This document shows positions 25,346-38,158 of a stretch of 64,000 nt of DNA, piece by piece. The position numbers and the translations under genes are program-made. Source of the stretch: a marine actinobacterium MedAcidi-G1 (GTDB lineage Bacteria > Actinomycetota > Acidimicrobiia > Acidimicrobiales > MedAcidi-G1); NCBI GenBank assembly GCA_000817085.1, contig JUEM01000009.1:1-64000 (forward strand), written 5' to 3'. The notes under the pieces are model-generated. The model searched no databases. It was not told the DNA's origin and saw only the letters and a list, made by a program, of their open reading frames with translations. The first letter of the stretch is position 1. Each line of letters opens with the position of its first letter.

Positions 25346-26158
25346 ATGAACAAATACAAAACTCTCATATACGAAGAGAGTGATTCTGTTGCTTGGGTAA
25401 CAATCAATCGACCTGACGCCCATAATTCTTTTACTTCTGAGATGCAAGAGGAGTTTCGCTCTTTATGGCTATCTCTACGATCTAATGATGAAGTCAACGT
25501 AATTGTTCTCACAGGTTCAGGCGAAAAAGCATTCTGTGTTGGAATCGACAGGAATGAACCTTTTACAGCTATTGACCAGGAAAAAGGACTTTATGGGACT
25601 TCTAATAACTTCATGTATGACGACCCAGGTGACTGGCTGGGTCCGAAGTCTAATGATCTTTGGAAGCCAGTTATAGGCGCGGTGAATGGCATGGCATGCG
25701 GTGGTGCGTTTTACTTCCTTGGCGAATGTGACATTTTAATTGCTGCAGAACACGCTACTTTTTTTGACCCTCACGTATCTTACGGAATGCCGGCAATCTA
25801 TGAGCCAATGAGCATGTTGAACAAAATGCCTTTTGGTGAGGTTATGCGAATGTCATTGACAGGAAACTCTGAACGAATTTCCGCAGAAACAGCTTTAAGA
25901 ATCGGTCTAGTAACCGAAGTTGTGCCTTCATCTGATCTGAGATCTAAAGCGAATGAGTTAGCTCTATCAATCGCAGCATCACCTCCGTCTGCAGTTCAGG
26001 GAACTCTTAGGGCAATTTGGGCTGCGCAAGATCTAGGAAGATTAGGTGGCAGATCTATAGCATCGTCACTACTTTCCACTGCAATGGACGGAGAAGCTTT
26101 GCAAGAAGGCGCAGAAAATTTTTCCACTGGAGAGCGAACAGAACCTAGATTACGTTAA
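25346..26158 (+). CDS. Enoyl-CoA hydratase/isomerase family protein
   Basis: About 270 residues of the crotonase fold. WVTINRPDAHNSF is the first CoA-binding strand. The oxyanion-hole segments are KAFCVGIDRNE and GMACGGAFYFLGECDILIAA. The usual catalytic Glu pair is only partly matched, so the reaction is open. ATG 25346 has GGAG at a good distance; the longer frame from 25265 is less likely. It is convergent with the kinase-like gene, overlapping 4 bp at the stops. Confidence 0.9.
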   Translation: MNKYKTLIYEESDSVAWVTINRPDAHNSFTSEMQEEFRSLWLSLRSNDEVNVIVLTGSGEKAFCVGIDRNEPFTAIDQEKGLYGTSNNFMYDDPGDWLGPKSNDLWKPVIGAVNGMACGGAFYFLGECDILIAAEHATFFDPHVSYGMPAIYEPMSMLNKMPFGEVMRMSLTGNSERISAETALRIGLVTEVVPSSDLRSKANELALSIAASPPSAVQGTLRAIWAAQDLGRLGGRSIASSLLSTAMDGEALQEGAENFSTGERTEPRLR

Positions 26159-27375
26159 ACAGCAACGACTTGCTCCAGAAGAGGGCTTGTAGAAGGAAGC
26201 AGGCCTGTCAATCTTTCTGACCAAATTTTAACCAAAGAACTTTCACCGTAGTCAGCTTCATAGTGTGCCGCTGCCAGAACCAATAGGTACGCCTGAAGCG
26301 CCAAACAGACTTGCATATCATTTTCATACTGAGCTTTTGAATAGTCTTTTACCCCTTTTGAAACAAGAGATTCGTGGTAAAAGTCTGAGAGTTGCTGATA
26401 AATACTTAATGATCCAGGACCTGGTTCTATGCATGAAGAAAGCAGATTAGCCACATCACAACTAGGCCTACCAGAGCTAAAACTACCGAAATCGACCATG
26501 ACCAAACCCTCATCTGTAAATAGCATGTTGTCAGTACGGGTGTCCCCTCTTAAAAGAGTCATTTTGTCATTTAAAAAAGCAACAGCATCAACAACATTGT
26601 CCGAAAACCAGTCTGTTAAACGAACCATATTTGAATTGAAAAGTTCTGGATTCTTTTCAATCACACGATCTCTTGAACCTCTGTAGAGACCGTTCATTAG
26701 CTTTGGAGTATGTGTTACGGTTGGCCACGCAATTCCCTCTTTGTCATCATCTAGCAATTGGTGTCCCCACCAATAAGAATGCACGACTGCTAAAGAATCT
26801 AGTATTTCAAGCAAATCTTTCTCTGGGGCAAGATTTTCAGTCGTCGTGGTGCGAGCACCCTCGATGTATTCAGTAATTAATGCATATCTTCGACCTGATG
26901 GACGAATGAACCTTCTGGCGTTTCCTCCTAAAAACTTAGACGCACCATTTGGAAGTGACTCTATTTTCTTATTTAATTTCCGTCGTGACTCAATATCCGA
27001 ACTTGGATCACGAACTGAGTAGAGAAGTTTTGGCACCCTTACAGGGAATCGATCTGAAAAACGCTCATAAAAATCAAACTCTCTGTCATAAGCGCCATCG
27101 CGCTCGATTAGCGCACGATTCTTAAGGTCCGTAGAGGGAAATTTAATTAGTATCGCCTTGGGTATTCCTTCTTCAAAATCGTCCCACTCCAAATCAACTC
27201 TTAAAGTTAAACCTGAAAAACCCTCACCGCTTTCAGGTTCCCTAGAGGAAAATGAAATAACGCTTGCAGTATTAGCAATTCCAGATTCTCTAAAGCACTC
27301 CGTTAACCACTCAACTGTCATCTCCTCTTCTGTTTGAGGAATGAACTTCTTCAGCTTCCTAGTCACAACATACAA
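26155..27375 (-). CDS. Phosphotransferase (APH / EcKinase-like) family protein
   Basis: A 406-residue small-molecule kinase-like protein. Early ATP-binding sequence includes GFSGLTLRVDL and AILIKFPS with the Lys. The catalytic loop is LLRGDTRTDNMLF, where the usual HGD is RGD, and the Mg motif is VMVDFGSFSSGRPSCDVANLL, with DFG. Families of this type phosphorylate alcohols or act in steroid/acyl degradation neighbourhoods. The R for H change is seen in some divergent members and does not by itself exclude activity. Confidence 0.85.
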   Translation of the reverse strand: MYVVTRKLKKFIPQTEEEMTVEWLTECFRESGIANTASVISFSSREPESGEGFSGLTLRVDLEWDDFEEGIPKAILIKFPSTDLKNRALIERDGAYDREFDFYERFSDRFPVRVPKLLYSVRDPSSDIESRRKLNKKIESLPNGASKFLGGNARRFIRPSGRRYALITEYIEGARTTTTENLAPEKDLLEILDSLAVVHSYWWGHQLLDDDKEGIAWPTVTHTPKLMNGLYRGSRDRVIEKNPELFNSNMVRLTDWFSDNVVDAVAFLNDKMTLLRGDTRTDNMLFTDEGLVMVDFGSFSSGRPSCDVANLLSSCIEPGPGSLSIYQQLSDFYHESLVSKGVKDYSKAQYENDMQVCLALQAYLLVLAAAHYEADYGESSLVKIWSERLTGLLPSTSPLLEQVVAV

Positions 27376-27381
27376 AGTAGT

Positions 27382-28416
27382 TTATTTTTGTCGATTAGAC
27401 AATCTAATCAAACCACTCCCAGAATGCATGCGTCCTATCACGGCAGCATCGTGTCCTGTTTCGATTAACTTTTTAAGAGCTGTTTCCACTTTTTCAGGTT
27501 GAACACCAAATACTAGACCCCCTGAGGTCTGCGCATCCGCCAGGAGATGAACATCGATATCTTCTACAGAACTAGCATCTACCCGGTCTTCAATCCACTC
27601 AAGGTTCCTTTGGCTTCCGCCTGGTAAATTCCCTGCTAAAGCCAACTTTCTCGCATCGGGCAATAGAGGAACTTCTGAAACATCTATCTCTATGTTGACT
27701 TTAGATTCCTGCGCTGCTCTCCCTAGATGTCCTAATAATCCAAATCCAGTTATGTCGGTAGCCCCAGTTGCCCCAACTTCAATCGCTATTTTTGCTGCCT
27801 GATCGTTGAGTCTGAGCATTGAGGTAATTGCTGCTTCTGTAGCCTCTTGAGTTGATTCTTGCTTTTTTATTGCTGTGGTTATGACTCCTATGCCAAGCTT
27901 TTTAGTCAGGATGACTAAGTCATTTTCACGGAACTCAGAATTCTTCAAAAGGTTTTTAGGGTTCACTTCACCGACAATAGCGAGCCCAAATTTTGGCTCC
28001 GGATCTTCAACTGTGTGTCCACCAGCTATTACAAAACCTGCTTCTTCGGCAACCTGATTAGCACCTTCCAAAACTTCAGAAAGTAGTTCTATTGGAAGTT
28101 CTTCAGAATTCCAGCCGACTAAATTAATAGCCATTAGCGGTTTTGCTCCCATGGCATAAACATCTGAAACAGCATTAGTTGCAGCTACTTTCCCCCAAGT
28201 TAGGGCGTCATCGATCACCGGAGTTATAAAATCAGCTGTCATTACCAGCGCCCTGTCATCATCTAACTGCCAAACTGCAGCATCATCACCCGTCGATGAC
28301 CCGACGATTAAGTTTTTTGATTTTTGTGGTTTAAGTCGGTGCAGAACCTGCTCCAGGTCACTCGGAGAGAGTTTGCAGCCTCAACCAGCGCCATGGCTGA
28401 ATTGTGTCAGTCTCAT
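27382..28416 (-). CDS. selD: Selenide, water dikinase SelD, selenocysteine-containing
   Basis: Makes selenophosphate from selenide and ATP for selenocysteine synthesis. The frame must be read through an in-frame TGA at 28381-28383. From ATG 28416 it runs MRLTQFSHGAGUGCKLSP, exactly the SelD active-site region where many bacteria have Cys or Sec. A perfect AAGGAGGT lies at 28421-28428, 4-5 bases before this ATG, whereas the first start after the TGA (28242) has none. Downstream come STGDDAAVW, TPVIDDALTWGKVAATNA and DVYAMGAKP, AGGHTVEDPEPKFGLA, TDITGFGLLGHLGRAA, and ADAQTSGGLVFGV. Total 344 residues, normal for SelD. A normal gene caller would truncate it by 58 residues. Confidence 0.95.
28345..28359 (-). 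promoter_or_regulatory. Probable bacterial SECIS hairpin of selD
   Basis: On the minus strand, 21 nt after the UGA, GACCUG and CAGGUU pair (five Watson-Crick pairs plus one G-U) around a GAG loop. Bacterial SECIS elements are small hairpins shortly downstream of the UGA with a G in the apical loop, bound by SelB, so distance and loop fit. Species-specific SelB recognition cannot be judged from sequence. Confidence 0.6.
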
Positions 28417-28477: not shown

Positions 28478-29638
28478 TCAAATTAATGAAACTACCTCTA
28501 AGAGCCGATCAACGTCTTTATCATCAATGTAAATACAAACACCCGCTCGAACCGCTCCTTTTTCACCAAGACCTAAGGGGTTCATAGCTTCAACCGCATA
28601 ATTATGACCATCCCAAACCGCTATTTTAGCTAGGGCAATTTCTTTAGCTATTTCTTCTGGTTCTTTTCCATCTATAAGAAACATCAATGTCGGCGCCCTG
28701 TCAGTATTGTCTTGAGGTCCTAGCACTCTAACTTTTGGGATATCTATAAGACCTGAAAGTAGTCGTTCAAACCTCGCAGATTCATGTTCAATTATCGACT
28801 CAAAACCTACACTCAGTAAGAAGTTTGCAGCTTCTTTTATCCCAGCCAAAGTCTCCCATGGCGGTGTTCCATATTGGAATCGGCCAGCTCCTTTTTCTGG
28901 CGATGGGCGAACTTTGTACACCGATAAATCATTCAATACTTCCGGTTCGATCCACATAATTCCTGCATGTGGCCCGTACCACTTATATGAAGAAGTCGCA
29001 TAAACATCGCAGCCTATTTCACCAATGTCAACTTTTCTGTGCGGCGTTAAATGCACTCCGTCTATAGCCACTTTTGCACCCACCTTATGTGCAGCCCTTG
29101 TTATAGAAGTTACGTCTGGAATTGAGCCAATAACATTTGATGATCCGGTTACCGCAATCCATCGCGTTCGCTGGCTTATCAAATCAATAACAGCATCTGC
29201 TTCGAGTCGCCCAGTGTCGGAATCGAATTCTGCCATCCGAATTGTGGAACCTGAATCACGGGCAGCCAACATCCATGGTGCAACATTTGCATCATGGTCA
29301 AGGGTGGTACAAATAATCTCATCTTCCGGTTTCAGGTCAACAGCAATAGCTCTTGTCAACGCCATCATGTTGGCGGTCGTACTCGGTCCAAAAGTCATTC
29401 CTTCAGGATCTGCAGAAAGAAGCTCCCCCATCGTCTTACTGGTCTCCTCGACAAGATCATCGCAAGCTTGTGCGGCGGGGAAAGCTCCGTGACTATTTGC
29501 ATTCCTTCCACTGCGTTGCCAGTCACTCATGGCTTCAATCGCTGTGTCAACTACTTGAGTCCCTGCAGGTCCATCAAATCGGGACCAGCCATCAGATAAA
29601 GCTGGAAATCGTGTCTGAATGTCGGTTAAATCGTTCAT
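28478..29638 (-). CDS. Cysteine desulfurase-like protein (class V aminotransferase, VC1184-like)
   Basis: A 386-residue PLP enzyme of the Csd-like branch. Opening sequence FDGPAGTQVVD is typical. The PLP site reads AIDGVHLTPHRKVDI and YATSSYKWYGPHAGIMW with the Schiff-base Lys. No clear catalytic cysteine loop of SufS/IscS type is present. I chose ATG 29638, six bases after AGGGTG; GTG 29647 is an alternative. It lies upstream of selD on the same strand, 61 bp away, so a role in selenium or sulfur delivery is possible but unproven. Confidence 0.85.
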   Translation of the reverse strand: MNDLTDIQTRFPALSDGWSRFDGPAGTQVVDTAIEAMSDWQRSGRNANSHGAFPAAQACDDLVEETSKTMGELLSADPEGMTFGPSTTANMMALTRAIAVDLKPEDEIICTTLDHDANVAPWMLAARDSGSTIRMAEFDSDTGRLEADAVIDLISQRTRWIAVTGSSNVIGSIPDVTSITRAAHKVGAKVAIDGVHLTPHRKVDIGEIGCDVYATSSYKWYGPHAGIMWIEPEVLNDLSVYKVRPSPEKGAGRFQYGTPPWETLAGIKEAANFLLSVGFESIIEHESARFERLLSGLIDIPKVRVLGPQDNTDRAPTLMFLIDGKEPEEIAKEIALAKIAVWDGHNYAVEAMNPLGLGEKGAVRAGVCIYIDDKDVDRLLEVVSLI

Positions 29639-29656
29639 TGAAGGCACCCTAGATAT

Positions 29657-37756: not shown

Positions 37757-38138
37757 GGGGCTGATCGGTTTCGACGCCGGTGACAGTAGCCGTTTTGTGC
37801 GACCAGAGTTGCTCAGACTCTTTAAACGGGGCTTAAAAAGAGACTCCAACACGGATGATCTCGCTCTCGCAGCCTGACCTAGTCAAGTTGTAGAGAGTCA
37901 TCGCGACCGGTAACGGCACGCGGGGCCGATCCACCGCAGCCTGGCAACAGAAGCGGAGGAGACCGCAGGGATAGACCGCTGACGGCGCGAAAGAACGCTG
38001 ACTTCAGGGAAAGACCTTTAGGCGAGCTTTGTGCTAACTGATCCGGCAGTGTGACAGCCTAAAGACACAACCACGGGAATGGTCGTATCGCAAGCGGTTG
38101 CACTCCGACGGACGGGGGTTCGATTCCCCCCAGCTCCA
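37757..38138 (+). ncRNA. ssrA: Transfer-messenger RNA
   Basis: The start GGGGCTGATCGGTTTCGAC is the universal tmRNA 5' end. The 3' end GGGGGTTCGATTCCCCC with AGCTCCA is the tRNA-Ala-like half, and GGGGCTG pairs with CAGCTCC. The tag frame ends TCCAACACGGATGATCTC..., reading RDSNTDDLALAA then TGA (~37840-37880), so the degron is ALAA, as in Actinobacteria. The resume codon is not obvious, since no GCN codon lies in frame directly upstream (GGC TTA AAA AGA). CCA is not encoded. Confidence 0.97.
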
Positions 38139-38158
38139 CTGTTAAGTAAAGAAGTTAA

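Follow-up and report, generated by a model that had tools for sequence, protein, structure and literature searches.

A selD gene with a conserved in-frame UGA codon and a covarying downstream hairpin in the marine actinobacterium MedAcidi-G1

The selD locus and its reading frame

The window analysed here, a 64-kb stretch of DNA from MedAcidi-G1, carries on its minus strand (27382-28416) a gene for the selenophosphate synthetase SelD, whose predicted 344-aa product would contain selenocysteine (Sec) at codon 12. The start codon (ATG, 28416-28414) follows a Shine-Dalgarno sequence at 28428-28421, and the 5' region reads AAGGAGGT TTGC ATG AGA CTG ACA CAA TTC AGC CAT GGC GCT GGT TGA GGC TGC AAA CTC TCT CCG. 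Codon 12 (TGA, 28383-28381) lies within a GAG-U-GCK motif, giving the predicted N-terminus MRLTQFSHGAGU, and the frame past it stays open until the stop that ends at 27382. These features bear out the original prediction, made without stating the strand, of an in-frame UGA at the SelD catalytic site (GAGUGCKLSP) behind a Shine-Dalgarno sequence and the true ATG. Automated callers had also been expected to truncate the gene, and the standard-code (table 11) ORF indeed has only 286 aa, beginning at an internal ATG at 28242 (Met59) and losing 58 residues. A purine-rich GGAGG/GGGGG-type motif precedes selD in most relatives.

With TGA translated as Sec, the product matched TIGR00476 over its full length (378 bits, cut-off 125) and NF002098 with 364.5 bits (cut-off 299), and the AIRS domains PF00586 and PF02769 were both recovered. 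The structure 3u0o was colinear with it over residues 1-331 (E 2e-77, 264 bits), with U12 and K15 aligned to Cys17 and Lys20, placing the catalytic Cys at the UGA position. The family-model matches, the catalytic Sec/Cys and Lys and the AIRS domains together identify the product as a member of the SelD family.

Across seven copies from the genus, pN/pS was 0.15 for residues 1-11, 0.09 for residues 13-58 and 0.13 for residues 59-340, which argues for purifying selection upstream as well as downstream of the TGA. A shorter product that begins at Met59 (28242) and would lack the catalytic loop of the enzyme is all that a standard gene caller yields; that it is the true protein is nonetheless highly improbable, since codons 1-58 are conserved to the same degree (0.09-0.15) and contain the catalytic residue and Lys, and since the Shine-Dalgarno sequence sits at the upstream ATG. 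Synonymous change over the same three segments was 0.076, 0.33 and 0.49, and this depression near the TGA is what a constraint on the RNA itself would lead one to expect.

Immediately upstream of selD, and on its strand, lies a class-V, cysteine-desulfurase-like aminotransferase gene (28478-29647; PF00266, 200 bits; TIGR01976, 348.7 bits, just below the cut-off of 352.35). Such a gene adjoins selD in all loci of the MedAcidi-G1 genus and in many of the family, and was undetected within the flanks of most selD loci of genus g4. Cysteine desulfurase-like pfam00266 genes have been named near selD in organisms with an orphan SelD (PMC5029168), so the association was already suspected. Identity as the selenocysteine lyase SclA was not supported, as NF040779 scored 73.5 bits against a cut-off of 525 and many relatives, from several genera, carry Thr or Ser in place of the cysteine of the RAGVC motif, the putative catalytic residue. 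Because this cysteine is not conserved, a role of the enzyme as selenium donor is possible but unproven. On the other side, a gene for an APH/EcKL-type phosphotransferase (26155-27375, minus strand) starts 6 bases after selD; no role in selenium use is known for it. Elsewhere in the window, a tmRNA gene (37757-38141, plus strand) matched Rfam RF00023 with 96.5 bits and was absent from the ARAGORN output.

Selenocysteine machinery and other UGA-containing genes

The assembly from which the window derives comprises 1.68 Mb in 43 contigs and is 84% complete. It contains selB on contig C21 (TIGR00475, 298 bits, cut-off 242) and selA (PF03841, 333 bits), which lie on one strand with 18 bases between them, as well as selC on C12, called by ARAGORN as a tRNA-SeC with anticodon TCA (UCA) and matching the Rfam tRNA-Sec model RF01852 with 64 bits (gathering threshold 47). 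The model of the selenouridine synthase MnmH/YbbB (TIGR03167) had no match in the 84%-complete genome, and the SelD plus MnmH/YbbB pair of the selenouridine trait would appear not to be encoded there.

Three further genes of this genome, which are candidate selenoprotein genes, carry a TGA at a catalytic position, so that SelD as the sole selenoprotein was dropped from consideration. In fdhA (contig C33, L070:1492-3411; TIGR01591, 656 bits) the TGA stands in NRT-U-HAPS, with Sec at codon 80; we take this to be the Sec site of formate dehydrogenase, as in FdhF. A second TGA (codon 631), located past the point where the family match ends, is probably the stop. Downstream follow a NuoE/NuoF fusion and then an iron-sulfur subunit, with fdhD nearby. 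The gene is split (C33, L074:6468-11009), in that the first ~49 profile positions form the end of the separate iron-sulfur subunit two genes downstream. A broken or newly rearranged fdhA was considered and dropped, as the TGA-bearing split form recurs in the order and resembles a published actinobacterial formate dehydrogenase (PMC7176365). The second gene encodes a PrxQ-like peroxiredoxin (C10, L095:1400-1890, minus strand) with TGA at the peroxidatic position (TPG-U-T), and the third a 344-aa AhpC/TSA thioredoxin-fold protein (C26, L098:1114-2148, minus strand) with the motif SSW-U-GC, which resembles the 'Prx-like (UGC)' family of a marine survey (PMC2398784) in its motif only. This selenoproteome is a sample rather than a census, covering the families PF00384 and PF00578 plus SelD; a scan of coding potential, run over the window plus two 17-kb stretches in search of other genes split by TGA, turned up no convincing one. 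The selA, selB and selC genes and the further selenoproteins, a formate dehydrogenase among them, had all been forecast from the selD sequence, and neither of the refuting outcomes named with that forecast came about. Use of Sec in the lineage is supported, though a single sequence did not warrant the accompanying word 'proves'.

UGA might alternatively be read genome-wide as another amino acid such as Trp, or the selD UGA be read through without Sec. Either reading is very hard to reconcile with the genome: among the 43 ORFs in the window that are 200 aa or longer, 16 terminate with TGA, so that UGA acts as a stop and is not reassigned; tRNA-Sec(UCA), SelA and SelB are all encoded; and several unrelated genes have their UGA at a residue that is catalytic or homologous to Cys.

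Conservation of the UGA and of the hairpin that follows it

Searching 81 genomes (MedAcidi-G1 and relatives) while reading through stops, we found SelD in 67, with an in-frame TGA in every match from the same genus and in nearly every match from the family. Where the codon was extracted directly, at 53 selD loci, it was TGA in 51 and Cys in 2 (G059, locus L057, and G066, locus L066). Among the SelD matches listed for the class (295 genomes), TGA-bearing forms were common and in the majority. A second TGA, counted in some matches as an extra in-frame stop, fits the normal terminal stop and was set aside. In a fragmented, 84%-complete assembly one might suspect that the TGA arose by faulty sequencing or assembly, or that it is a nonsense mutation in a gene undergoing decay. 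Both are extremely improbable, given that the same TGA is present in separate assemblies from the genus (that of Acidimicrobiales bacterium AG-414-N20 among them) and in most of the SelD matches listed for the class, and that purifying selection acts on the frame as a whole. The in-frame UGA, the coding conservation on its two sides and the Cys homologs at the same position mark selD as a predicted bacterial selenoprotein gene.

Shortly after the UGA, the transcript can form a hairpin, GG.GCAG-GUU-CUGC.CC (28338-28354, minus strand, loop GUU at 28347-28345), that corresponds to the upper hairpin of a bacterial SECIS and spans 27-43 nt past the UGA, or RNA positions 30-46 counting the U of UGA as 1. 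In an alignment of 20 distinct sequences from the order, its 7-bp stem (30-36/40-46, loop GUN) was paired in 95% of cells, with double changes at 4 of the 7 pairs; pairing surpassed that of shuffled and slid controls, and RNAalifold recovered essentially the same stem unprompted. Across a wider sample (Nitriliruptorales, Chloroflexi/SAR202, Bacillota, Carboxydothermus and Gemmatimonadetes), which aligned free of gaps, 84% of cells paired and double changes occurred at 6 of 7 pairs, with poor pairing at three loci (L140, L145 and L166). G37 and T38 were invariant in both alignments. Because some double changes also alter the protein (His-Val to Gln-Leu; Arg to Gly), they cannot be put down to codon bias alone. 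Counting against the hairpin, pair 32-44 is A.A or A.G in the genus of MedAcidi-G1.

A hairpin had been anticipated after the UGA, and a conserved one exists; the particular GAG-loop hairpin noted at 21 nt (stem ACUC/GAGU) is a separate pairing limited to the genus and out of register outside it. Folded as a single sequence, the selD region did not stand out from its shuffles (z from about -1.2 to +0.1), so a hairpin spotted by eye in one sequence is weak evidence, and an Rfam search at the selD hairpin returned no match. In the Cys-containing SelD ortholog of G059, from the same order and 60% identical to the protein described here, no such fold was found (z +1.0). In the G059 genome this Cys-SelD, which lacks a SECIS-like stem, occurs alongside an FdhA match that still bears a single in-frame TGA; G059 may thus be a Sec user whose SelD has exchanged Sec for Cys. 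Taken together, the alignments point to a SECIS element conserved as a structure shortly after the UGA, with G and U in its loop.

Hairpins also follow the UGA in the other three genes: GUCGUC-GGUCU-GGCGAC after the first TGA of fdhA, GGGGCUCCGUGAUAGGGCCUC in the PrxQ-like gene and CUGCC-AGGUU-GGCAG in the WUGC gene, these three being drawn from single sequences. All four loops, that of selD included, contain GU, which is consistent with one SelB serving all four genes.

A predicted selenium pathway and its known counterparts

We are highly confident that selD encodes a functional selenophosphate synthetase with a catalytic Sec12, that Sec is inserted by way of SelB and the hairpin, and that the enzyme supplies other selenoproteins. 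The sequence itself shows the open frame with its conserved UGA, the covarying hairpin, the three sel genes of the machinery and the further UGA-containing genes. Going by what is known of these families, SelD would make selenophosphate from selenide and ATP, SelA would convert Ser-tRNA with selenophosphate into Sec-tRNA, and SelB, bound to the downstream hairpin, would deliver Sec-tRNA(UCA) at the selD UGA; the same selenophosphate would supply FdhA, the PrxQ-type peroxiredoxin and the WUGC thioredoxin-fold protein. SelD would then depend on its own product, since it makes the selenophosphate needed for its Sec. For this reason it is conceivable, if unlikely, that selenium use in these marine bacteria is switch-like, such that a cell out of SelD would not easily restart, with the PF00266 enzyme as a dedicated donor sustaining the loop.

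Selenium use in marine actinobacteria is easily missed, because standard-code calls shorten selD by 58 residues and break fdhA and two redox genes. A literature search gave nothing relevant on selenocysteine in Acidimicrobi- or on selenoproteins in Actinomarinales, and selenium use of the marine Acidimicrobiales group appears undocumented in the literature searched. For this group, the present analysis adds a SECIS with comparative support, the Sec machinery and part of the selenoproteome; the understanding of selenium biology is unchanged. The selD hairpin holds the same position all the way from Acidimicrobiales to Chloroflexi and Bacillota and is usable as a signature for Sec-SelD in metagenomes.

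Like the SECIS of E. coli fdhF, that of selD is a stem-loop that lies within the coding region and has G and U in its apical loop. Its UGA-to-loop spacing is ~14 nt longer, which counts against the Sec reading of selD, and most relatives have a GUN triloop, unlike fdhF. The E. coli-type SelD 3u0o has Cys for Sec and needs no SECIS, and is otherwise colinear with the protein described here. The split FdhA looks like a known actinobacterial layout, since the sizes of its three subunits (639/595/289 aa) resemble those of the cytoplasmic Sec-containing FDH3 of A. chiangmaiensis DSM 45062 (640/614/316 aa; PMC7176365), a member of a different Actinomycetota class, likened here by subunit sizes. FdhA is the most widespread selenoprotein (PMC1794560), and Sec-SelD is both classic (PMC1794560, PMC4561486, PMC13188914) and abundant in marine samples (PMC2398784). 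The Sec-SelD proteins of Aquifex aeolicus (2yye/2zod) and Pasteurellales belong to the same family and share the Sec/Cys position, the Lys at +3 and a bacterial SECIS just after the UGA. From these the present case differs in host group and not in principle; it is a real instance of a well-known arrangement, in a poorly studied group.
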